22,870 nt of DNA from a virus. The notes beneath the pieces are model-generated. The model worked only from the letters and a program-made list of their open reading frames with translations. It made no database searches and had not been told where the DNA came from. Position numbers and translations under genes: made by a program. Shown one piece after another: positions 4,601-21,959 of this stretch. The stretch covers positions 1 through 22,870 of IMG/VR virus record IMGVR_UViG_3300026094_000039; one strand, 5' to 3'. Within the stretch, counting starts at the first letter, position 1; each line of letters begins with the position of its first letter.

Positions 4601-5419
4601 TGAATAAGTGATTGTACCCGCAGAAGTAACATCATTACCAGTGCTTTCGCTTTGCAGGACACCACTTGAATTATATTCAGCTTGAAATACATCGGTAGGG
4701 TCATCATAAGCCGATAGATGCTGAACTATCCATTTACCATTAGTTTGCTTACACACCAATCCAAAGGATTTTAGTATAGCTTCTAAGGCTTCTAACTTCG
4801 TTATCTGCTCAGGGGATTCATCCCCTGTCCTTGCATATTCCCTCAGTGCAAATTCATCAATGTAAACCTGTCTCAGTATATCGTTTGAATCAGTACCACC
4901 GTCTAATATCCATGATGTTTCAGATATGATATTTAATGCTACTATATCAGATAAAAGGCTTGCCAATATTGTAATTGGTGTTTCCCTGTCATCATCTAAT
5001 GGGTATAAATCACCCTTTAATGTAGAAAAATCTTTAGCTACAATGGTAAGCGAATACGGGTTATCCTTTTCCTGATAGGAGCAAAGATCGGGAAGTATAA
5101 TACCCGTCCATTCGAGCGAACCACCTTTATAGTATTCTAAAGTAAACCGACCTTCATCGGCATCGAATAAATCTGTTAGTAATCCTGATTCATCGTATTC
5201 ACTTGTTTCAATCCATACCGTAACTGTAATAGTACGCTTTTGGATGGGGTTAGATAGTGGCTCCCTTACATCTAATTGTTGTAATTGGTCATTTAACCAA
5301 CCTGCACCGATGTTATCTAATTCTGTGGCAGAACCACCAAAAGAAGAATCAAGTATTTTAATCTCTACTGATTCATTCGTTTCTAATGTAGTATGTCCTG
5401 AGTTATACCTTTCGCTCAT
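1604..5419 (-). CDS. tail-tip hub/fibre fusion protein, probable receptor-binding protein
   Basis: A 1271-residue virion protein and the last gene of the minus-strand module. Residues 1-575 look like a baseplate-hub type tail protein: a beta-rich start with an LEWTGIILPD segment near 102-111, then regions typical of the large tail-tip protein that follows the tape measure in Bacteroidota siphophages. A Gly/Ser/Thr linker at about 582-597 separates a second half with tail-fibre hallmarks: LSDLDSANTARGNLG at 612-626 and TLATVRSNLGLGETDDVTF at about 660-678, the repeated LSDL/ARxNLG motif common in phage fibres, followed by long Gly/Asp/Ser/Thr-rich beta segments. The C-terminus (about 1110-1271) is a separate beta-sandwich-like domain. 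Inferred role: hub plus host-recognition fibre in one chain. No peptidase or chaperone domain was recognised at the C-terminus. It overlaps the tape measure by 4 nt. Confidence 0.85.
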   Translation of the reverse strand: MSERYNSGHTTLETNESVEIKILDSSFGGSATELDNIGAGWLNDQLQQLDVREPLSNPIQKRTITVTVWIETSEYDESGLLTDLFDADEGRFTLEYYKGGSLEWTGIILPDLCSYQEKDNPYSLTIVAKDFSTLKGDLYPLDDDRETPITILASLLSDIVALNIISETSWILDGGTDSNDILRQVYIDEFALREYARTGDESPEQITKLEALEAILKSFGLVCKQTNGKWIVQHLSAYDDPTDVFQAEYNSSGVLQSESTGNDVTSAGTITYSDNNFNPGVKSARVKFDHRTQVSTIKFPRSIVLPDDDSTYTQFFQSDGDQQIRLSGSIEATLSDGSNPTGTANIRIKAGTTNEYWWDGDDWQTSTSSFSLTTYLAGDDGSGNFVYERTGFAELTDNIPADADGEIEIQLFQAGSGAFTATNTEYNLDFNIINAVAQENSTYIDYELTQTPSQSVRVKYSDIWFGDGPVSYARSAISTNSSGSDLTADDWARRGEMTYLPFAHNLLREVLDVQRTTTRRISATVKSVLSFGDIVSYDSQYFYVLGGSFDGYSGVSTVELLRINIQTATDTFDNIPKFEEEGTTGNTSPSTGGGGLTESQANNTYLQQSNNLSDLDSANTARGNLGVEIGIDVQAQSSTLQDLSDSLTATSTELNRLDGTLATVRSNLGLGETDDVTFADITGDSLDIGGGDATVNGSGVATLSGLSVNTSSGSISVDPLGSNSTLYDITASGQWDFKGSFFKISRGSVDKLAIQKNNFTAYGDNYRLIILNDATVDAFSAGHSIAGGGFLEVRNDADEQKIVLRSYGDSVFENALFVNSLLSADGGINVNDDFTVGAGGATDIDSTLGVTGDGTFESNLFVEGGLFANEFVVNTTKVLTDFAMSAGGKVGSVSGGAGSEVVSFVDEDDTKVEPFGTNDILHIQVTTGATNGTIVKNIYRKVASIDGSSNFTLTTSGINWTTGSDVGSIAVGDSVVRKGNTAGTTDRDHYIKFDISGNGGVSAPTVTVFDNVTDVNDDGDIRLMYGKLDGEYGIGGSADEFGFAVGDSSLSGNHIILTPSTTAFQLDTFKLDSDGIDIDSSTNSITVGTGGKLEGDNWVISDTSWEHPSISEVIWSTAFEADTGVITGGGEPPSVSGEEYTVESQAPSGNQDNEVERRFVSATFRKATNKDYLVFYSQQLSDISGDATTYEMELKMSLDGSVVATESMASFGSGDPITLVYDMSGLSNNTEHYVELSLRARIITGTGESGTATASISAICALTAEAVDPTA

Positions 5420-11371: not shown

Positions 11372-11385
11372 CTCCTGTTTAGGAG
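11372..11385 (-). other. short hairpin spanning the capsid stop codon
   Basis: CTCCT-AAAC-AGGAG, a 5-bp perfect stem with a 4-nt loop, overlapping the TAA of the major capsid gene (11381-11379) and lying 3 nt before the tRNA-like structure. The two together form a compact structured block of about 58 nt between a high-copy gene and a low-copy gene, as expected of an element that separates their expression. No U-tract follows it. Confidence 0.4.
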
Positions 11386-12629
11386 TTACCTGCATTTTGT
11401 ATCGCAGTAGCGAAGTTACCAAATCGACCTGCATCAGGTAGATATGTTGGCAGTGCTAAACGACCTGAAATCTGAACAGTTACCAAGTCTTTGATAACAT
11501 TGTCCTGATCTTGTTCGTAGAATCGAACACTCATTCCTTCTCTATCAAATAGAGTAGTCAACTGTGGGAAGTCAGCGACTAAGAAGTCATTAATGTTACC
11601 GTCTGTGCTGTTAATAGCGTTAGTTGCTACAATAGGAACGCCCATAACTCGTGGCATCTGATTACCGAATACTACTTCCTGTGGGAAAATGTATTGACCG
11701 TCAGCATCCTTGCGCTGAATCATTTCGAAGTATCGTGAAATACTTACCATGATAGCAGAAGGGTTGTAGTTATCGGTTCTGATTTGCTGAATAGCTTGCA
11801 ACAGTACATCATATTCCTGTGCATTAGCATCGCCAGTATAAGCATCTAACGTATAATCGGTTGCAGTGGTGGTCAAACCGTCAAGGTCTGCTCCTGTACC
11901 GCCTCCGTATAGTAACTGAGCATCTTCTTCATTCATGTACTTCTGTGAGCCACGCAATGAGATATGAGAAGCCAACCCCTGTGTGTCATTCAATGCTTCC
12001 TTAGAAACACGGAAATGAGCAGAGATTTTAGTTACGTTTGCATCAGTTGCTGTCAAGTCGAAATCACTTTGACCTGATGCGTTGTTTTCAGAACTTGTAG
12101 CCGTTCCATCAGTATAGTTAGATTCCTGAATATAACGAATCTTATCAGAGCTTGTAGTTCCTTGTGGTAAGAACTGACGTACTCGAACCTGACGCTCTGC
12201 ATTGAACTTAAAGCCAGGTACATAGTCAGCAGGCACTACATCATTAGTGTAAGCATCTGCTTCCGTAATAACGGCTTTAGTCTGCATTGCAAATGGTCTG
12301 CCATGCTCTTTGAAAGCATCCATCTGCTCTTTATTCTCAGATAAAGCATCAATCATTTGGTCTTTAAAACTACGTGGTGTGTTTCCACCGCCACTTAATC
12401 TACCGCCTGCTTTCTCGATAGCATCAATGCGCTCTCGCTCTGCTAATAGCTTTTCTTCAAGGTTCTTATTCTGATTCTTAAGAGTTTCCTCTACTTCGCC
12501 TGTGTTCTTGGCTTGCTCTTCCATTTTGGTTTGCAAGGCTTCAAGATCGGCTTCATATTTTTTGGCCTTTTCCTCGTATGTTGCTTTTACGTCAGACAAA
12601 CCTTCCTGTAATGTTTTTTCAATATCCAT
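11379..12629 (-). CDS. major capsid protein (HK97 fold)
   Basis: A 416-residue protein. Residues 1-75 are a charged coiled coil (EEKAKKYEADLEALQTKMEE and similar), the delta/scaffold domain normally removed by the prohead protease. The Gly-rich RLSGGGN segment near 77-84 marks the end of that domain, and the exact cut may fall between it and about residue 112. The rest has the HK97-fold pattern: VPADYVPGFKFNAERQVRVRQ (E-loop and N-arm region), SAHFRVSKEALNDTQGL, QLLYGGGTGADLDGLTT, and the spine/A-domain close FDREGMSVRFYEQDQDNVIKD. The start overlaps the protease by 11 nt, the usual protease-capsid pair. Confidence 0.95.
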   Translation of the reverse strand: MDIEKTLQEGLSDVKATYEEKAKKYEADLEALQTKMEEQAKNTGEVEETLKNQNKNLEEKLLAERERIDAIEKAGGRLSGGGNTPRSFKDQMIDALSENKEQMDAFKEHGRPFAMQTKAVITEADAYTNDVVPADYVPGFKFNAERQVRVRQFLPQGTTSSDKIRYIQESNYTDGTATSSENNASGQSDFDLTATDANVTKISAHFRVSKEALNDTQGLASHISLRGSQKYMNEEDAQLLYGGGTGADLDGLTTTATDYTLDAYTGDANAQEYDVLLQAIQQIRTDNYNPSAIMVSISRYFEMIQRKDADGQYIFPQEVVFGNQMPRVMGVPIVATNAINSTDGNINDFLVADFPQLTTLFDREGMSVRFYEQDQDNVIKDLVTVQISGRLALPTYLPDAGRFGNFATAIQNAGNS

Positions 12630-13374
12630 TGAATATACCTTTTACTTTATTTTCTAATTTGAATTGCTCAAAGATTGCTTTTATATCGGCTTGGTCTTGT
12701 GAAGTGTCGTCTGACGGCTTTACATTCTTAAGTGATTTTCTAATCCTTGATTCTATGTGTTCCCTTTGTTTTTTGATGATTTGGAACGTGTCATCCGTGT
12801 AATCTCCTTTATACCATGCTTTATTAAGCGTATCATAACGCTCTAATAGTGCATCAAAATCCTTAGCCTTACCCATTCCGCCGACGGCCATTTCATTAGC
12901 CCCCCATGTAACCGTAGAACCTTCCCACATCTTAACTTCTGTAACAATGTTTGCTCTATCTTCATCAGAGTAATCACCCTTTATGATATTAATACCAACA
13001 GAGTGCTCTTTATACACCCCGTCCTTGTATAGTTTAAGGGTATCGGTTCCGTATTGGGTTTCGCTTATCGCTGTGGTAAATTTAAGCCCATAATCATCTT
13101 CATATAATTCCATTGGCTTACCTAATGGCTTGGCAGGGTCATGCTGTAACAAATGCATGATTCTATTCTTCCCTCTTGGCCCCCGTTCTTCAATCGTCTT
13201 AGAGTAGCACCCCCTTTTCAACATATCACCATCAGAATCAACGAAGTCAAATGCAGAGAAGTAACCGCTTACCATACGGCTTTCCATATCTACATCTTTA
13301 ATTGATCCTGAGATCATTTTAGCTTTATAGCCTATATCATAGGATTGGGGGGTGTCGGCTTTTTGCTTATTCAT
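12619..13374 (-). CDS. prohead maturation protease (HK97 family, U35)
   Basis: A 251-residue serine protease that removes the capsid delta domain inside the prohead. The HK97-type catalytic residues are visible: H78 in LLQHDPAKPLGK and S125 in KEHSVGINI, with the third residue probably acidic around 145-155. N-terminal SGYFSAFDFVDSDGD is the usual family start. The C-terminal 80 residues are charged and helical, consistent with a scaffold-like tail that is self-cleaved. It is the first gene of the capsid block and has a promoter-like sequence 30-60 nt upstream. It is separated from the portal/MuF block by the glycan insert, which is unusual because these genes normally adjoin. Confidence 0.93.
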   Translation of the reverse strand: MNKQKADTPQSYDIGYKAKMISGSIKDVDMESRMVSGYFSAFDFVDSDGDMLKRGCYSKTIEERGPRGKNRIMHLLQHDPAKPLGKPMELYEDDYGLKFTTAISETQYGTDTLKLYKDGVYKEHSVGINIIKGDYSDEDRANIVTEVKMWEGSTVTWGANEMAVGGMGKAKDFDALLERYDTLNKAWYKGDYTDDTFQIIKKQREHIESRIRKSLKNVKPSDDTSQDQADIKAIFEQFKLENKVKGIFNGY

Positions 13375-13437: not shown

Positions 13438-13490
13438 GGTTAGAGAGTTAATTATGTATTTTGTGTTTGACTTTTAACAAAACAGGTATT

Positions 13491-13757
13491 ATGACTTCTA
13501 AACAACAAGAAAAATTAAGCAGATTAATAGATAATTTTCAGAATAATGAAACGGTATTTATAAAAGGGCTGGAGTTCTATATATTAGAAATAAACACATT
13601 TGGCTTACATGAAGATGTTAATATATCTTTACGCCTTAAAAACGAATATGAAAAGCCTGAAAGAAGTATATCAGACTTTGAAACAGCAGAACTTATTAAC
13701 GAATTACAGGGTAGAATTGACAATATAAAAGATGACATGGATAGATATTATGACTGA
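13491..13757 (+). CDS. small protein, first gene of a plus-strand cassette
   Basis: An 88-residue protein from the ATG at 13491; reading on from the upstream TTG adds 10 residues but lacks support. It has an N-terminal helix (TSKQQEKLSRLIDNFQNNE), a beta-type middle (VFIKGLEFYILEINTF, NISLRLKNEY), and a helical acidic C-terminus. It is encoded against the direction of the surrounding head genes, is AT-rich, and overlaps the next plus-strand gene by 8 nt. This is the position of a 'moron', an extra gene added to a structural module. Function unknown. Confidence 0.65.
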   Translation: MTSKQQEKLSRLIDNFQNNETVFIKGLEFYILEINTFGLHEDVNISLRLKNEYEKPERSISDFETAELINELQGRIDNIKDDMDRYYD

Positions 13758-13875
13758 ACAAGAATTAGACCACATTAAGTGGATAGGGGATAGGCTTATT
13801 TATAAGCACGGTGAAAGTAAAAACATTGATTACATTATAAAGCTTAACAATATAATAGAAAAGTATGATAAGTGA
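13750..13875 (+). CDS. 41-residue protein, second gene of the cassette
   Basis: MTEQELDHIKWIGDRLIYKH at the start, then a helical stretch ending NIIEKYDK. It begins 8 nt before the end of the upstream gene and its own end overlaps the next start by 11 nt, which is the best evidence that it is translated. It resembles a small helical protein or a short coupling peptide; no family recognised. Confidence 0.5.
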   Translation: MTEQELDHIKWIGDRLIYKHGESKNIDYIIKLNNIIEKYDK

Positions 13876-14053
13876 AAAAGAATTAGAACGAATCGACAAC
13901 TTACCGCTTATAGAAAGAGCAGAGGAACGGTTAAAGCATAACTTAGCTGTTAGTAAAGAGGATATAAGTTTAATGATTGAGTATTTGAGAGTGTTTAAGA
14001 AGCATCCCACAGATATTGATGTTGATGAATATAATTTTAAGAATAGCCTTTAA
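13865..14053 (+). CDS. 62-residue helical protein, third gene of the cassette
   Basis: A charged, mostly helical protein (ISEKELERIDNLPLIERAEE at the start, then SKEDISLMIEYLRVFKKHPT). It shares the Glu/Leu-rich E-x-ELE/ELD type of start with the 41-residue protein before it (TEQELDHI against SEKELERI), suggesting that the two are related or that one arose by duplication. Its end overlaps the convergent glycosyltransferase gene by 17 nt, so this cassette and that gene read into each other. Function unknown. Confidence 0.6.
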   Translation: MISEKELERIDNLPLIERAEERLKHNLAVSKEDISLMIEYLRVFKKHPTDIDVDEYNFKNSL

Positions 14054-14720
14054 TATCACATATTCCATCTGCAACCTTGTTCTGTTCCTCACAGTTCATC
14101 TTATGCTCTCGATATATAGAATAGTCTGAGTTTGTAATAAGCGATTTAAGCCACCAAATCCGATGCTGAATACATAGTGCCGGTATGCCACGTTTGGCAA
14201 GCTCTAACCCACACATAAGGTCGCTCATCTTGTATTTGTCCCAAGTCAACGGGTCAAAGCGTAGTAATGAAGTATGAAAAGCACTTACACCTGTTCCCGG
14301 TACATCTATCTCCCAATTACCCTTAACAGTGCGATTAAATGCAAACCTCTTATGTCCTGAGTAGTAATCTAACCCCTTGCCATCTAATTTTCTGCCATGA
14401 TACGTGATAAAGTGCTTATTGTACTTCTTTAGATATCTAAGCGTATTCTCTATGTAGTTATCAGGGTATTCAATATCGTCATCGCAAGTAAAGAAGTATT
14501 CATCTTTTGCATAAGGTAAGAATGCAAACTTTCCGTTATCGGTTAGATCACGCCCTGTGTAAACTTTAACTATATCTCTTTCAATATCGGGTAGGTAGTC
14601 ATTAGCATACACCCTAATAACATCGGGCTTTACTGTTTGACCTAACAGGCTCTCTATAACTTTAGGCAGCAACTCCTTACGTCCTGAGAATGTAGCTAAA
14701 TTGACTGATATTTTACTCAT
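14037..14720 (-). CDS. glycosyltransferase, GT-A fold (GT2-like)
   Basis: A 227-residue protein with a family-2-like start (ISVNLATFSGRKELLPKVIESLLGQTVKPD), the nucleotide-sugar metal motif FTCDDDIEYPDNYI (D80-D82), and a later GTGVSAFHTSLL region that may form the acceptor side. The C-terminal half has CGLELAKRGIPALCI, which corresponds to the conserved acidic/hydrophobic block of GT2 enzymes. It lies last in the glycan insert, downstream of the sulfotransferase-like gene with an 8-nt overlap. Substrate unknown. Confidence 0.85.
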   Translation of the reverse strand: MSKISVNLATFSGRKELLPKVIESLLGQTVKPDVIRVYANDYLPDIERDIVKVYTGRDLTDNGKFAFLPYAKDEYFFTCDDDIEYPDNYIENTLRYLKKYNKHFITYHGRKLDGKGLDYYSGHKRFAFNRTVKGNWEIDVPGTGVSAFHTSLLRFDPLTWDKYKMSDLMCGLELAKRGIPALCIQHRIWWLKSLITNSDYSIYREHKMNCEEQNKVADGICDIKGYS

Positions 14721-15201
14721 GGCTTATATGGTTAGCAAATAAGAATGTTTCGTCATCATAACCCTCTTTAGGTGGCTTAATAGCTTCAAATTCTTTCAGT
14801 ACAGCCTCACAATCAATATCTAACCCTAATATGTTCTTAATGGTATAGATACACTCTAACGGCTTATTTACTATTTCATCATAGTGCATGTGTATTGACT
14901 TTCTACGCCACAATTCAAGTTGTTTCCGCATCCATGTAATACTTCGCTTGCTACCACCAAATACACGCTGTAAGCTATTCAATATATCCTTATCGTTTCT
15001 GTCTGTGGTGAATATGTAATCAGCTTTATTGTATAAACTTTTATCGAATGGGTGCATCTTTATTATATTAACCCCATCCTTTATCGTATAGGCTTCACCC
15101 CAAGTATGTACGTCTAAGCCCGCATGTAAACAGCATAACCTAACCATATTGAATTGTGCTGTACTCCCCGAACGCTTTATTCCGCTAATTACAATTATCA
15201 T
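14713..15201 (-). CDS. sulfotransferase-like protein
   Basis: A 162-residue protein with a nucleotide-binding loop GIKRSGST at residues 7-14, matching the 5'-phosphosulfate-binding loop of PAPS sulfotransferases better than a standard P-loop kinase (no GK[ST]). Further matches to that fold are YIFTTDRNDKDILNSLQ, equivalent to the 3'-phosphate-binding Arg/Asp segment, and SIHMHYDEIVNKP...IKNILGL, equivalent to the LRYEDLxxDP...FLGL region near the C-terminus of such enzymes. It is shorter than typical (about 250-300 aa), so the acceptor region must be minimal. A sulfotransferase would transfer sulfate from PAPS to a sugar or tyrosine; the sugar is favoured because of the neighbouring glycosyltransferases. 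It is not certain that it is active. Confidence 0.7.
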   Translation of the reverse strand: MIIVISGIKRSGSTAQFNMVRLCCLHAGLDVHTWGEAYTIKDGVNIIKMHPFDKSLYNKADYIFTTDRNDKDILNSLQRVFGGSKRSITWMRKQLELWRRKSIHMHYDEIVNKPLECIYTIKNILGLDIDCEAVLKEFEAIKPPKEGYDDETFLFANHISHE

Positions 15202-15202
15202 T

Positions 15203-15808
15203 TTAATATCTATATGATTCTCTCATATTTTTTATTATGTGGTGTCTTTTGTTTCTTTGTTCTAAATCATTCCATCTTGATTTTTGTTTTGAATGAATTC
15301 GATAATTATATACAACCTTATCACAATACCCTATTTTAGCACCATTTTTAAGCATATTAAGGTGGAAATCTAATTCTTCACCATAAAGCAATGTTTCATT
15401 GAATTTAACCTTATTAAACCAAGATGTTTTATATAATCCTGTACCACCCCTTATTGTATTCTTATTAATAAGCTCTGTAACTGTGGGTGTTGTGTTTTCA
15501 GACTTTACAATAAATGAATTATCATTAGAAAAGTTTTTACCATGTCCATGTATGAAATCATAACCATTAATAGCTTTTAACCTATTTTCTATACTATCAG
15601 AAGGCAATAAATCATCTTCATGTAAATAACACCAATATTTTGTATCACATTTTTCAATTCCTCTATTTGTATTATATGACAAATTTTTATCTGAATGCGA
15701 TAGTATTAATTTACATTTAATTGTTTGATTTTTTACACTCTGTATAGCTTCGTTTAAAAACCCCCTATCTTTGTTGTAAGGGATTATAACAGTTACACTT
15801 TTAGTCAT
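15203..15808 (-). CDS. glycosyltransferase family 2
   Basis: A 201-residue GT2 enzyme: TVIIPYNKDRGFLNEAIQSV at the start, LSYNTNRGI for nucleotide binding, YLHEDDLLPSDS with the metal-binding Asp residues (63-68), and a GEELDFHLNMLKNGAKIGY block with the catalytic-base-like Glu/Asp, followed by the common YNYRIHSKQKS end. By eye it is more AT-rich than the virion genes, which would fit separate acquisition. It sits 1 nt upstream of the sulfotransferase-like gene on the same strand. Confidence 0.9.
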   Translation of the reverse strand: MTKSVTVIIPYNKDRGFLNEAIQSVKNQTIKCKLILSHSDKNLSYNTNRGIEKCDTKYWCYLHEDDLLPSDSIENRLKAINGYDFIHGHGKNFSNDNSFIVKSENTTPTVTELINKNTIRGGTGLYKTSWFNKVKFNETLLYGEELDFHLNMLKNGAKIGYCDKVVYNYRIHSKQKSRWNDLEQRNKRHHIIKNMRESYRY

Positions 15809-15862
15809 GATTATTATATTTATATCGTTTAGCGTAAAAAAAATCAGGATTATAACTTATTA

Positions 15863-16015
15863 CTATACATCTATGCCTTCATTAATAAGAATATCCAATA
15901 ATTCATCTTCCATTTCTTGCCAGTCATCCAAATTATTATGATTTAAATGACCGCCACCACCTGATCTTAATTCCCAATATAATAGTAGGATAAATTGTTT
16001 TGTTTGCTCTTTCAT
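15863..16015 (-). CDS. 50-residue protein in the glycan insert
   Basis: A short protein with a hydrophobic N-terminal helix (FILLLYWELR), a Gly4-His turn and an acidic helical C-terminus (DDWQEMEDELLDILI). Its ATG overlaps the stop of the upstream glycosyltransferase (ATGA), the main reason to believe it is real. It is followed by a 54-nt AT-rich gap with a T8 run (minus strand) before the next gene. Function unknown. Confidence 0.5.
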   Translation of the reverse strand: MKEQTKQFILLLYWELRSGGGGHLNHNNLDDWQEMEDELLDILINEGIDV

Positions 16016-16641
16016 CGGCTTATTAGTGGGTTTCGTTTCCGTTCTTCGGGATGCATTAAGCTCTTATGATCCCCGTGATAAGCTAAGGATTTTTTAGGAA
16101 TATACATAGGAACATTTGCCTTATAGAATTTCCTTGATTGCTGTTGACCTACCCCCGAACTAATACCATCTACCTTGAACCGCATCGGATTAATCCAATC
16201 CATATCAAAACCCAATACTTCCAATGCTTGGCGGTTGCAGAAATAGTTACAGTCAACATACGATCCGAATATTCTATCATCTTCCTCTCTGTGCTTTATT
16301 GGTGTCCATCCTCTATGCCCGCCTGCGTTGTGTACGTTATAAGCATAATCCCCTTCCATTGATGCATGGATAGTATGTATTCGGTCTAAGTCAACATTGC
16401 TCAAATCATCCTGTAAAAAGATAAACAAGTCATCATCGGACTCTTTACACATCTGCAACGCATAACGCCACGTGAGCCAAAAGAACTCCTTCCCTAAATG
16501 ATGTAATCGGTAATAATCACATCTATCTATAAACGGTGCGGGATCGTACTCAGAACCATCATCCAATACAACACAATGCCCCACTTCATCGAGTAGCTTA
16601 GAGAGCATTTTTGGGCGGTTGTAGCTGAATATAATGGTCAT
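16012..16641 (-). CDS. glycosyltransferase, GT-A fold, divergent
   Basis: A 209-residue protein with the start MTIIFSYNRPKMLSKLLDE and VVLDDGSEYDP, both typical of GT-A nucleotide-sugar binding, and the metal motif IFLQDDLSNVD (D78-D79). The C-terminal part (VDCNYFCNRQALEVLGF, then a YHGDHKS histidine near the end) resembles GT2/GT-A acceptor-side segments. It is the first of three glycosyltransferases in this insert. The 50-residue gene downstream overlaps its stop. Confidence 0.8.
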   Translation of the reverse strand: MTIIFSYNRPKMLSKLLDEVGHCVVLDDGSEYDPAPFIDRCDYYRLHHLGKEFFWLTWRYALQMCKESDDDLFIFLQDDLSNVDLDRIHTIHASMEGDYAYNVHNAGGHRGWTPIKHREEDDRIFGSYVDCNYFCNRQALEVLGFDMDWINPMRFKVDGISSGVGQQQSRKFYKANVPMYIPKKSLAYHGDHKSLMHPEERKRNPLISR

Positions 16642-16797: not shown

Positions 16798-18153
16798 TTA
16801 TGCACCTCTATAACGATTATACAAATTGATAATTTCATCATCGTATTTCTTGCCTGTCTTTAGACCACTATAAACTTCTGAAACAAACTCTTTTGGGTTA
16901 ACTCTTGCATATCTACTAACTCTTTCTACTATATCTCTATGACTTAGACTAAAGAAGTTATCCTTTTGAGCGAATTTAAGATGCGCTATTTCATGGTACG
17001 CTATACCTAACGGGTTATCAGATGACCACCAACCATTATCAAACTGCTCTTTCATTGTTTTATTAGGGTCTAAGAAAAACTTACCTCTTTTATTTAAGAA
17101 TATCTTTTTCTGTGATGGTGATGCCATTGCAGGAACCATAGATTTACCCCTACCTAAAGATTGTATAACAACATCATATCCTTCATCTTCAATAACCTTT
17201 TTCATCTTTCTAAGATTATCAGGTCTATTTGTAGTCCATTCCACATTGGGTAAAGGCTTATTACCACTATCAATTATTTCATTACTACCAAGCCTTTCAT
17301 ATATAATCGTACACCTACAATTAATCGTATTACCCGGGCTTGCTTGTGGGTCGCATGGAACATCCATAGCCTCACCTGATACTAAGAACTGACCTTCTAA
17401 GCCCACAAACTGCCCATCGGCATTCACATGGTCATATCTGTCGTTTGGTTGCAATCCCCTAACTCTTGCATCCCTCGAGCTAAGCCAACCTTTCTTTAAG
17501 CTCAATCCCGCCTCTTGTGCCCCTAACAAGCTTCCGTAATTAGATGCTCTTATTATCTCTGTTCTGCCTATAAGCCTCCCTCTATTGCGTGAAAGCCCAT
17601 AATCATTGTCTAACATTCGGGCAAAATCATCAATACTAAGCCCTTCCTGTATTGCTTGCGTTAATACACGGTCAACAGCATTACGTGTTGTGTTTGATAT
17701 GTTCTGTATTAAATCAACAGTATTGCGAGATAGCCAAGCATTTATAACAGATTCCCAATTAATACCTGTCTTAGTAACCTTTATGTCATGTTCTGCTTTT
17801 AATCGTGAAAGGGTATCTTCCCCAAAGTTTTGCATTACCCTTCGGTATAATTGCCGAAATGCGTTCCTTACTGGCGTTTCATCTACATCTAATCGGAAGT
17901 TAAAGTCTTTTGCTTCTAAGGCGGGCTTAGCTTGCTGTCTTATCGCTTTTGTGAATAGATTAGTAGCATATCCTAAATATCCCCATCGTTTAGAGTCTAT
18001 GCTTTTCCATGTCATGCGAGATTTACTCTCATCCCGCCACATCGAGATACAAATAGCAACAGCTTGTTCTCTATCGGTTCCTTCGTTTACTACAACAGGA
18101 ATACAACGGTCTAAGAATTGCGCTCTGTTCTCATTCGGTTTTGGCTTTGGCAT
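16798..18153 (-). CDS. minor head protein (MuF) with C-terminal zincin-like domain
   Basis: A 451-residue protein with three parts. Residues 3-42 are a small Cys-containing module (NENRAQFLDRC, then REQAVAICISMWRDE) often found at the ends of phage portal and head proteins. Residues about 60-286 are the MuF/SPP1 gp7 head-morphogenesis domain: a helical region, GRLIGRTEIIRASNYG, and the Cys/His-type end with DGQF, SPGNTINCRCTI. Residues about 300-451 carry a predicted zinc metallopeptidase domain: an edge-strand region KKIFLNKRGKFFL, the HExxH motif HEIAH at 387-391, and a downstream Glu in SRYARVNPKEFVSEVY (E426) as likely third ligand. MuF proteins are packaged in the head and may be injected. 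The fusion could be an effector, an assembly protease, or a degenerate passenger. Confidence 0.85.
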   Translation of the reverse strand: MPKPKPNENRAQFLDRCIPVVVNEGTDREQAVAICISMWRDESKSRMTWKSIDSKRWGYLGYATNLFTKAIRQQAKPALEAKDFNFRLDVDETPVRNAFRQLYRRVMQNFGEDTLSRLKAEHDIKVTKTGINWESVINAWLSRNTVDLIQNISNTTRNAVDRVLTQAIQEGLSIDDFARMLDNDYGLSRNRGRLIGRTEIIRASNYGSLLGAQEAGLSLKKGWLSSRDARVRGLQPNDRYDHVNADGQFVGLEGQFLVSGEAMDVPCDPQASPGNTINCRCTIIYERLGSNEIIDSGNKPLPNVEWTTNRPDNLRKMKKVIEDEGYDVVIQSLGRGKSMVPAMASPSQKKIFLNKRGKFFLDPNKTMKEQFDNGWWSSDNPLGIAYHEIAHLKFAQKDNFFSLSHRDIVERVSRYARVNPKEFVSEVYSGLKTGKKYDDEIINLYNRYRGA

Positions 18154-19870: not shown

Positions 19871-21203
19871 AGCTAAGTATTTGCATTGTTCTGCGCTTTC
19901 TTACAATCTCATTACGCATGGCATTAGCATACACAACAGCATCGCCTTTATCTGGTGATCTACCTAATCGTTTCTTTATATCGTCTTTAGGCTCTACCTG
20001 TATCATCTTCTCACCCTTAATAGCATAACGTGGTGCTGTAAGGTCTGTCATAAGCTCCTCATCACTCATATCTATTCTGATACGCTTATTCTTAACATCT
20101 TCTCTGAATTGCCACCACATTTGGCTTCTAAGGTTCTTAAACTCATAGCTTTCATATTGTGCTGTGGCTTTGGCTCCTGATATAATCTCTACTGCTTTCT
20201 GTCCTTTGGCTTTCATATTATCAAAAACACCCGCCCCTAAACCAACCGTATCAATACCGCAGTTATTAGGTGTTATATTCTCTTTCTGTATAAACTCAAT
20301 AAGCATATCACCAACTTCTACGGTATCCTTACCTTTATGCTCTACAATCTTCTCCAACCAATTTCCATTCATTTTGGCAAACGATGTCTTATCATCACCA
20401 TAACGGGCTATATCAGCACCGACATAATTCATGCCGGGCTTCTTATCAACGTCTTTAAGTGCTATCAAGTCCTCAAAAGTAACAAGGGCATCAGGATCAT
20501 CGGCATATTCCCAATTACCATATTTAAGCCTTTGCTTCTGTGCTTCGTTTACAAGGCTTTCAAGTGTTTCGGCTGTGCCTTCTTCCCTGTATTTATTGTC
20601 TGAGTATAAAGATTGAATAAACGCATAATCATCAGGAAGCTCATTCTGTTTATCGGGCAGGTAAAAAGTAGTATAAAGCCAATTCTTAGCAGGGTTACAC
20701 GTTAAAAGTATCTTTCCAGGATTAATATCATACAAATCGTTCAGATGCTGTCCTATTCTTGTTTTAAGGACATCAAACGCTCCAAAGGGTATTTCACCTG
20801 CCTCTTCTATCCAACCTCCTGTATATTCCGATGAGCCAAAACGCTGAAATAAAGGATCAGATGGGTATTGCTTTAATTCGAGTAAGTCGATACGAGATCC
20901 ATTTGAAAAAGATATGTAATGATCTTGACCGTTATACCTGTAATCATCTTTAGGTATCTCATATTCCGAACACACTTTAAAGAATGTCTGTAAAGTAGTA
21001 TTACGCAATCGCTTTAGTTCTTCACGACCACAAAACCAACGAGTACCGGGATATTCATAACAATTAGAGATAAGCCAAAACCAACCTAACCAGCTTTTAC
21101 CACCCCTTGCTCCACCACCAAATAATAAGAAGCGTTTATCATCACCCCTAAGTATTTTTAGTGCATTACCTTGCTTCCTATGGAGTTTAACATCCTGTAT
21201 CAA
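19866..21203 (-). CDS. terminase large subunit
   Basis: A 445-residue DNA-packaging motor and nuclease. The ATPase is visible: Walker A GGGARGGKS at 29-37, an E-rich Walker B in GGWIEEAGE (E133/E134), and the coupling motif LLTCNPA at 167-173. The RNase H-like nuclease has VGADIARYGDDKTS (D264), NNCGIDTVGLGAG (D318) and PDKGDAVVYA (D418/D421), the expected acidic triad. Length and order are typical. It overlaps TerS by 4 nt. Confidence 0.95.
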   Translation of the reverse strand: MIQDVKLHRKQGNALKILRGDDKRFLLFGGGARGGKSWLGWFWLISNCYEYPGTRWFCGREELKRLRNTTLQTFFKVCSEYEIPKDDYRYNGQDHYISFSNGSRIDLLELKQYPSDPLFQRFGSSEYTGGWIEEAGEIPFGAFDVLKTRIGQHLNDLYDINPGKILLTCNPAKNWLYTTFYLPDKQNELPDDYAFIQSLYSDNKYREEGTAETLESLVNEAQKQRLKYGNWEYADDPDALVTFEDLIALKDVDKKPGMNYVGADIARYGDDKTSFAKMNGNWLEKIVEHKGKDTVEVGDMLIEFIQKENITPNNCGIDTVGLGAGVFDNMKAKGQKAVEIISGAKATAQYESYEFKNLRSQMWWQFREDVKNKRIRIDMSDEELMTDLTAPRYAIKGEKMIQVEPKDDIKKRLGRSPDKGDAVVYANAMRNEIVRKRRTMQILSF

Positions 21204-21466
21204 TCTTCAATACTTACACTAAAACCTGATAACTCATTGCCACCGCTTGTAACATCAACAGTCTTATGTGGCTTACCATAGCGATACTCTAACCAACACT
21301 TAACAGCTTGGGTATCACCTTCATCTACTTTATCGGCTAACTTCTCCCATACTTCTTTAGGTGCTTTGACGGCATCCATAGTCTCTATAAGGCGTACTTC
21401 ATCTGCTTTAGGCGGTCTCCCTGCCCCTTTTCTCTTACCACCATGATTGTTTTTTTTCTTACTCAT
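21200..21466 (-). CDS. terminase small subunit
   Basis: An 88-residue protein with a basic N-terminal GGKRKGAGRPPK stretch (residues 9-20, AT-hook-like), then a helical part and the sequence YRYGKPHKTVDVTSGGNEL at the C-terminus that is common in short TerS proteins of this type. It recognises the packaging start and recruits TerL. It overlaps TerL by ATGA. It is shorter than most TerS proteins (about 140-170 aa). The 31-nt gap upstream contains nothing notable. Confidence 0.85.
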   Translation of the reverse strand: MSKKKNNHGGKRKGAGRPPKADEVRLIETMDAVKAPKEVWEKLADKVDEGDTQAVKCWLEYRYGKPHKTVDVTSGGNELSGFSVSIED

Positions 21467-21497: not shown

Positions 21498-21959
21498 TTA
21501 ATAGTCTTTAAATACGTTAGAATATTTGTGTTCAGATATTTTACTAATAGCGTTAACTAACTCTGTATCAGTAATTTTATACCAATCACCTTTATTTATT
21601 CTTTTTAAAAGCGCATGTAAATCATTTTCAATTTCAAAACAATAATCAACCTTGTTTAAATAAGTAAGACTAATATTCATGTTATGCGATTTGTATAAAG
21701 TAAATCTTTGCTTAGGGTTTTTTCGTTGCGTAACGCCTATTTTATAGTATCCTGTATCTACGTCTTTTATTATATATATCCACCCTGATTGCAATGATAA
21801 TTGTTTCGCCTCTTTTAAAGCCTGTTTCTTTATTTCTTCGTCTTCTAATAAATTGTCCATAAAGTCATTAACAGCTTTATTTATTTTATTAGATATTCCA
21901 GTGCCTTTTTTTCGACCTGCGCCTTTTCTTGAACCACCGTTAAATTTTCTTTTATCCAT
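21498..21959 (-). CDS. GIY-YIG (T5orf172/MUG113-like) protein with TerS-like N-terminus
   Basis: A 153-residue protein. Residues 8-19 (GGSRKGAGRKKG) nearly repeat the basic N-terminal motif of TerS, its neighbour. Residues about 58-130 form a GIY-YIG domain of the T5orf172 type: WIYIIKD (60-66), YYKIGVTQ (71-78), the conserved Arg in KQRF (R85), E111 in IENDLHALL, and the KGDWYKI end. The nuclease residues appear present. Such proteins are nicking or homing-like nucleases; HNH enzymes in the same gene slot assist cos cleavage in other phages. Here a cos-nicking helper or a selfish homing gene are both possible. Confidence 0.8.
   Translation of the reverse strand: MDKRKFNGGSRKGAGRKKGTGISNKINKAVNDFMDNLLEDEEIKKQALKEAKQLSLQSGWIYIIKDVDTGYYKIGVTQRKNPKQRFTLYKSHNMNISLTYLNKVDYCFEIENDLHALLKRINKGDWYKITDTELVNAISKISEHKYSNVFKDY

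Follow-up and report, generated by a model that had tools for sequence, protein, structure and literature searches.

The window analyzed here is the whole of the 22.9-kb IMG/VR virus record IMGVR_UViG_3300026094_000039 (22,870 nucleotides), and it carries on its minus strand the packaging and head-to-tail module of a tailed phage, in the order terminase large subunit, portal (PF04860, E=3e-38), MuF, a cassette of four genes, S78 protease and HK97-type capsid. The cassette encodes three glycosyltransferase-like proteins, GTa, GTb and GTc, together with a small protein, ST, that resembles the sulfotransferases using 3'-phosphoadenosine 5'-phosphosulfate (PAPS) (Table 1). A preliminary description, made from the letters of the sequence, had placed such a set between the MuF and prohead protease genes at 14037-16641. 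These positions coincide exactly with the outer ends of four minus-strand open reading frames (ORFs), both flanking genes match the expected Pfam families, and all the motifs it quoted are present, namely QDD (within FLQDD) in GTa, HEDD in GTb, CDDD in GTc, and the GIKRSGST, 3'-phosphate and YDEIVNKP segments in ST. GTb and ST are separated by 1 bp, and ST overlaps GTc by 8 bp.

When searched as a single sequence, ST reaches PF13469 below threshold (E=0.1), gives chance matches only in a phmmer search of the PDB, finds no match among GenBank phages or in genome contigs, and has no counterpart in PHROGs. Homologues are encoded by four viral contigs, L002 (54% identity to the ST of the window), L095 (39%), and L096 and L097 (42%); the last two are near-copies of one another, and the four relatives thus represent three diverged lineages. 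The sixth member of the family is the C-terminal domain of WP_260033677.1, from a plasmid of Leisingera caerulea (26% identity over 97% of ST, E=1e-4 in a 7.3-Gb collection). With all six sequences combined in a profile, 20 of the 24 PDB matches are PAPS sulfotransferases, among them SULT1A, SULT1B and SULT1C enzymes, TEG12 and Teg14. The closest solved sequence is that of human SULT1B1 (E=3.8e-4), with a match that spans two motif regions, HMMER aligning the ST loop and the Y..P region with their SULT1B1 counterparts (YEDMKENP in the latter case). SULT1B1 is still the top match when the bacterial member is left out (E=0.059).

The motif segments of ST are GIKRSGST (residues 7-14), TDRNDKDILNS (66-76) and YDEIVNKP (107-114). 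Residues G7, R10-S11-G12-S13-T14, N18, K48, H50, R68 and S76, and in the C-terminal part Y107, I110, P114, D149, N157 and H158, are invariant in all six sequences. K48 and H50 constitute the K-x-H of the catalytic strand (KTH in SULTs), and R68 and S76 are an Arg/Ser pair, about eight residues apart, of the 3'-phosphate-binding type. From their order and spacing, we take the invariant residues to correspond to the 5'-phosphosulfate loop, the KTH-type strand, the 3'-phosphate segment and the YED..P motif. Known PAPS sulfotransferases (PF00685, PF13469) likewise have the G..RSGST loop, the K-x-H strand, R...S and Y..I...P in this order. The ordered pattern fits ST but no sequence among 200,000 shuffled versions; of the 3,234 ORFs in related loci, the four viral homologues alone show it.

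The family nevertheless differs from the classical enzymes, since its phage members have 162-178 residues against about 295 in SULTs, and the RKGxxGD-type C-terminal PAPS-binding motif of the SULT subfamily is absent from the ST alignment, in which D..T.L..NH is conserved instead. PF13469 is matched by five of the six members and PF00685 also by five, all under the curated cut-offs, the best scores being 22.3 bits against 27 (PF13469, Leisingera domain) and 17.0 against 22 (PF00685, L095). As they fall below the gathering cut-offs, we place these proteins in a new family of the superfamily, belonging to neither PF13469 nor PF00685. An AlphaFold model of ST built from two sequences is of medium confidence (predicted local distance difference test, pLDDT, 65.5; predicted template modeling score, pTM, 0.67). 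In the PDB, SULT4A1 and further sulfotransferases match it best, sulfotransferases making up 15 of the 50 matches listed; the best E is 0.96, and none is significant. A viral fold library yielded nothing of use. The family profile and the motifs, with weak backing from the predicted fold, assign ST to a compact new family of the PAPS-sulfotransferase superfamily, in agreement with the assignment first proposed. A match to an NCBIfam deoxythymidine monophosphate (dTMP) kinase model (E=0.026) was dismissed as chance, because ST has no Walker A motif and the family profile leads to sulfotransferases.

Of the three glycosyltransferases expected to be GT-A-like, two pass the PF00535 (GT2) gathering cut-off of 23.3 bits, GTb with 29.7 and GTc with 30.0, and on these scores both are assigned to the GT2 glycosyltransferases; D80-D82 is invariant across the GTc family. 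GTa itself has no Pfam match and is likely, by its family, to be a GT-A-like glycosyltransferase: three of 11 family members match PF00535 (best 2.5e-5), the acidic DD motif is largely conserved, and several of the best fold matches of its AlphaFold model are GT-A enzymes, although the model is too poor for use (pLDDT 51). Kinship of GTa with GTc gained no support in a profile-profile comparison. No transmembrane-like segment is found in GTa, GTb, GTc or ST (maximum 19-residue hydropathy 0.16-1.06). L002 encodes GTa and GTc as a single fused protein of 431 residues, 34% identical to each, which argues for their joint action.

Table 1. Genes of the cassette and of its immediate surroundings in the window
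Feature	Position	Strand	Evidence
MuF head protein, upstream of cassette	16798..18153	-	PF04233 E=5e-10; phrog_2468 head morphogenesis E=2.7e-37
GTa, 209-residue GT-A-like protein, FLQDD, first cassette gene	16012..16641	-	ORF and family Pfam matches
50-residue ORF, 4-bp overlap with GTa end	15863..16015	-	ORF only, without Pfam match
GTb, 201-residue GT2-family glycosyltransferase, HEDD, optional in cassette	15203..15808	-	PF00535 E=7.4e-7
ST, 162-residue compact PAPS-sulfotransferase-like protein	14713..15201	-	Family profile and motifs
GTc, 227-residue GT2-family glycosyltransferase, CDDD, cassette hub in other phages	14037..14720	-	PF00535 E=5.8e-7
S78 prohead protease, downstream of cassette	12619..13374	-	PF04586 E=3e-19
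HK97-type major capsid protein, candidate acceptor	11379..12629	-	PF05065 E=1e-31

The slot between MuF and protease is a fixed one. GTa is 49-53% identical in 12 viral contigs that carry it in the same position, and 43% identical in L096 and L097. As far as the 12 contigs reach, their order is MuF, GTa, then either a hydrophobic protein of 57 residues or GTb plus the same protein, and then GTc, protease and capsid; ST is absent from all of them, and homologues of GTb were found in L011 and L014 only (54-55% identity). In L096 and L097, the order is MuF...GTa-ST-GTc-protease, followed by the capsid gene in L097, with 4-bp overlaps at the GTa/ST and ST/GTc junctions, and these contigs have diverged from the window in every gene (identity 32% in MuF, 41% in the protease, 37% in the capsid and 38-40% in the portal). 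L095 shows a MuF-like gene, GTc, a small ORF, ST, two putative glycosyltransferases, a scaffold-like gene and a capsid gene of a type unrelated to that of the window (PF20036), the MuF, scaffold and extra glycosyltransferase labels being given by position and appearance and not by Pfam. In the case of L002, the terminase gene is followed by small ORFs, the GTa/GTc fusion, a GT2 gene, a methyltransferase, ST and connector-type genes.

Every viral ST recovered is thus accompanied by a GTc-family gene, adjoining or at most 200 bp away in L095, L096 and L097 and two genes off in L002, and the searches for ST homologues were made without using GTc. A check that the preliminary description proposed, for the same four genes in related phages, comes out largely positive: GTa-ST-GTc occupies the same slot in L096 and L097, and ST is paired with GTc in two more lineages; the full set including GTb was seen in the window only. 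Between the window and L002, ST is more alike (54% identity) than GTa or GTc (34-37%), which hints at a separate transfer of ST. In a tree of GTc, the ST-bearing members fall in four places and the supported branches force at least three changes, although a single clade of ST-bearing GTc is not rejected (approximately unbiased, AU, test, p=0.065), long branches being in play.

In the relatives that lack ST, a hydrophobic protein of 57-58 residues directly precedes GTc (L003 10642-10815, L014 11231-11407, L011 4494-4667, and others), in the place held by ST in the window and in L096/L097; it is possibly a membrane anchor or adaptor of the cassette.

GTc is also the hub of a more variable neighborhood. 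It has 153 relatives in viral contigs, of which the best 80 were retained, and in 27 of 30 non-redundant loci it lies no more than 3 kb from head or packaging genes. Its neighbors include an FkbM methyltransferase (L037), GT25 (L058), a rhamnosyltransferase (L089) and S-adenosylmethionine (SAM) methyltransferases (L087, L002). In L079, another sulfotransferase-like protein (4795-5388, 197 residues, PF00685 E=0.0017, with the segments GERNSCNNYL...KNPYSWLLSL) lies beside a GT2 gene and GTc in a head module, and an Aureimonas plasmid homologue of it adjoins cysC, the gene for adenosine 5'-phosphosulfate (APS) kinase. Profile-profile comparison of the ST family with this second family gives a weak match at the Y...P motif only (E=0.02). 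We read the L079 protein as another, independent acquisition of a sulfotransferase in the head-module slot. We tentatively propose, with a confidence somewhat short of even, that the GTc-centered cassette is an exchangeable glycan-coat locus that swaps sulfation, methylation and sugars, and that tailed phages of several lineages use the compact new ST family and soluble glycosyltransferases of their own to make particles of sulfated glycoprotein. An asparagine-synthase-like ORF (L062 2-1525, 507 residues, 5' truncated) directly precedes GTc beside the terminase gene; its product could possibly amidate an acidic sugar.

The genes with their motifs and family relationships, their constant place in the genome and their repeated occurrence in diverged phages are observed; on this basis we build a model for the cassette, in which the catalytic activities, the order of steps, the acceptor and a benefit to the phage are inferred. 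The products of the cassette would act in the cytoplasm to assemble a short glycan, sulfated with PAPS of the host and most likely carried by a virion protein; we see even chances for this reading. GTa, GTb and GTc, soluble and of the GT-A type, would add sugars one by one from host nucleotide sugars, and ST would use host-made PAPS to sulfate a sugar hydroxyl, after glycosylation or interleaved with it; no APS kinase gene was found in the ten records tested, all of them fragments. Since the enzymes are soluble, the cassette has no flippase and its position is in the head module, sugars may be transferred straight to a cytoplasmic protein. The acceptor would be a virion protein from the same gene region, such as the capsid, MuF, tail tube or tail fiber, and the outcome would be particles bearing a sulfated, negatively charged glycan. 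The comparison suggests that this phage and at least three diverged relatives coat their particles, or the host surface, with a sulfated sugar.

Several observations weigh against this pathway: the ST scores lie under the Pfam cut-offs, the support from AlphaFold is weak, ST is rare (the window plus four viral contigs, four lineages), and the setting of the bacterial homologue would suit a host-type polysaccharide equally well. In addition, three small overlapping plus-strand ORFs (13461-14053; 98, 47 and 62 residues) intervene between GTc and the protease gene, on the strand opposite to that of all their neighbors, and co-transcription of the cassette with the protease and capsid genes is for this reason not evident in the window. 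The same enzymes might instead modify a host surface glycan during infection, be it lipopolysaccharide (LPS), capsule or an S-layer glycoprotein, for example to block superinfection or to keep progeny off debris, with the sulfated product not on the virion; we regard this as unlikely, if far from negligible. Phage glycosyltransferases that alter the host O-antigen are well known, the Leisingera homologue of ST is found within a surface-polysaccharide gene cluster, and the cassettes of relatives contain the hydrophobic 57-residue protein. However, the four enzymes are devoid of transmembrane-like segments, whereas Gtr-type serotype-conversion loci have glycosyltransferases and a flippase in the membrane; the cassette shows no evident gene for a flippase or a polyprenyl-phosphate transferase, and it is located in the head module rather than in a lysogeny or moron position.

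Phage glycosyltransferases can also act on DNA, and a second alternative is that those of the cassette decorate a hydroxylated base of the phage DNA, which ST would modify further. Nucleotide modification based on glycosyltransferases and sulfotransferases is cited as reported for phages in PMC10829341. A thymidylate-synthase-family base hydroxymethylase (PF00303), the one family of hydroxylases searched for, is nevertheless present in none of ten records, which are fragments, and no other base-modifying gene was recognized in the window; the bacterial ST homologue sits among polysaccharide genes, and elsewhere the neighbors, GT25 and a rhamnosyltransferase among them, are sugar enzymes. We rank DNA modification as less likely than the modification of the host surface, and very improbable. 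A further alternative, which seems improbable to us, is that the 162 residues form a P-loop protein that has degenerated or been repurposed, being non-catalytic or a kinase, and that the product of the cassette is a glycan without sulfate. Such a protein would fit the sub-threshold Pfam scores, the weak dTMP-kinase match (E=0.026), the small size, the missing RKGxxGD-type motif and the medium-confidence model, but ST lacks a Walker A GK[ST], its family profile points specifically to PAPS sulfotransferases, and the loop, the K-x-H and the R...S are invariant over four viral lineages and a bacterial homologue of 26% identity, as they should be in an active enzyme.

Virion glycosylation by phage enzymes is already known, and sulfation is the new element of the proposed virion pathway. 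It is documented for capsid and tail-tube proteins of mycobacteriophages, the examples being Che8, Corndog and Myrna (PMC12363180, citing Freeman et al. 2023). Glycosyltransferases encoded by the phage are believed there to act on its own virion proteins, as proposed here; glycosylation was demonstrated in that case by experiment, in contrast to our evidence from genes, and the available part of that source mentions no sulfotransferase. The related F1 phage Maravista differs in having its glycosyltransferase genes near the 3' end of the genome and not in the head module (PMC11256854). Sulfotransfer_3 genes, which belong to the same superfamily, occur in genomes of marine OM43 phages and of Synechococcus phage S-SRM01; in the accessible text of PMC10580990, they are recognized as PF13469, their function is stated to be unclear, and no link to a glycosyltransferase cassette in the head module is mentioned. 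Autonomous glycosylation is also described for large DNA viruses of the chlorovirus type, with virus-encoded machinery for the virus's own proteins (PMC4691112). These are eukaryotic viruses, and their genes are unrelated to those of the cassette. Sulfation is not known from that system. No description of a sulfated phage glycan or of such a cassette was found in the literature searched, which covered few subscription journals.

Phage particles are mostly viewed as bare protein. If our model is correct, many environmental phages would carry the genes for glycans of their own particles, in a widespread cassette that is linked to the head genes and varies in its sugar, methyl and sulfate tailoring enzymes; the phage sulfotransferase genes of unclear function (PMC10580990) would also gain a testable role. 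The compact ST family adds to the PAPS-sulfotransferase superfamily a phage branch that is absent from PHROGs.

The bacterial homologue may be informative in its own right. WP_260033677.1 has in common with ST all the motif residues shared by the family and a glycan-biosynthesis setting, namely a surface-polysaccharide locus that includes gmd and genes for GDP-fucose synthase and glycosyltransferases; it differs in belonging to a bacterial cluster rather than a phage and in being a domain of a larger protein. This hypothetical protein of 429 residues (L093 11311-12600), with a TPR-like N-terminus ahead of the ST domain, is possibly an unannotated glycan sulfotransferase.

Past the capsid gene, the minus strand continues with a head-tail connector, a head completion protein, an HK97-gp10-like protein, the tail tube and tail genes, and a phage lysozyme gene lies on the plus strand at the left end of the window. 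Late expression of the cassette with the capsid is plausible, since portal, MuF and cassette follow one another on one strand; scans for promoters and terminators gave sites no more numerous than in shuffles. The plus-strand ORFs next to GTc were not seen in any of the relatives examined, and the first of the three had no match in a Pfam search. The best GenBank matches of the portal are to Cellulophaga phages (about 29-31% identity) and the most numerous to Salinibacter phages, and from these we would guess a host of the Bacteroidota/Rhodothermota type. The MuF protein of the window exceeds most of its close relatives (about 260-307 residues) by about 150 residues; its C-terminal extra part (residues ~290-451) carries AYHEIAHL, an HExxH zinc-metallopeptidase-like motif, and resembles the C-terminal extensions of MuF effector proteins. 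At 21498-21959 on the minus strand, a protein of 153 residues with a T5orf172 (GIY-YIG-like) domain has a basic KRKFNGGSRKGAGRKKG start that resembles the one of the neighboring small-terminase-like ORF at 21200-21466.

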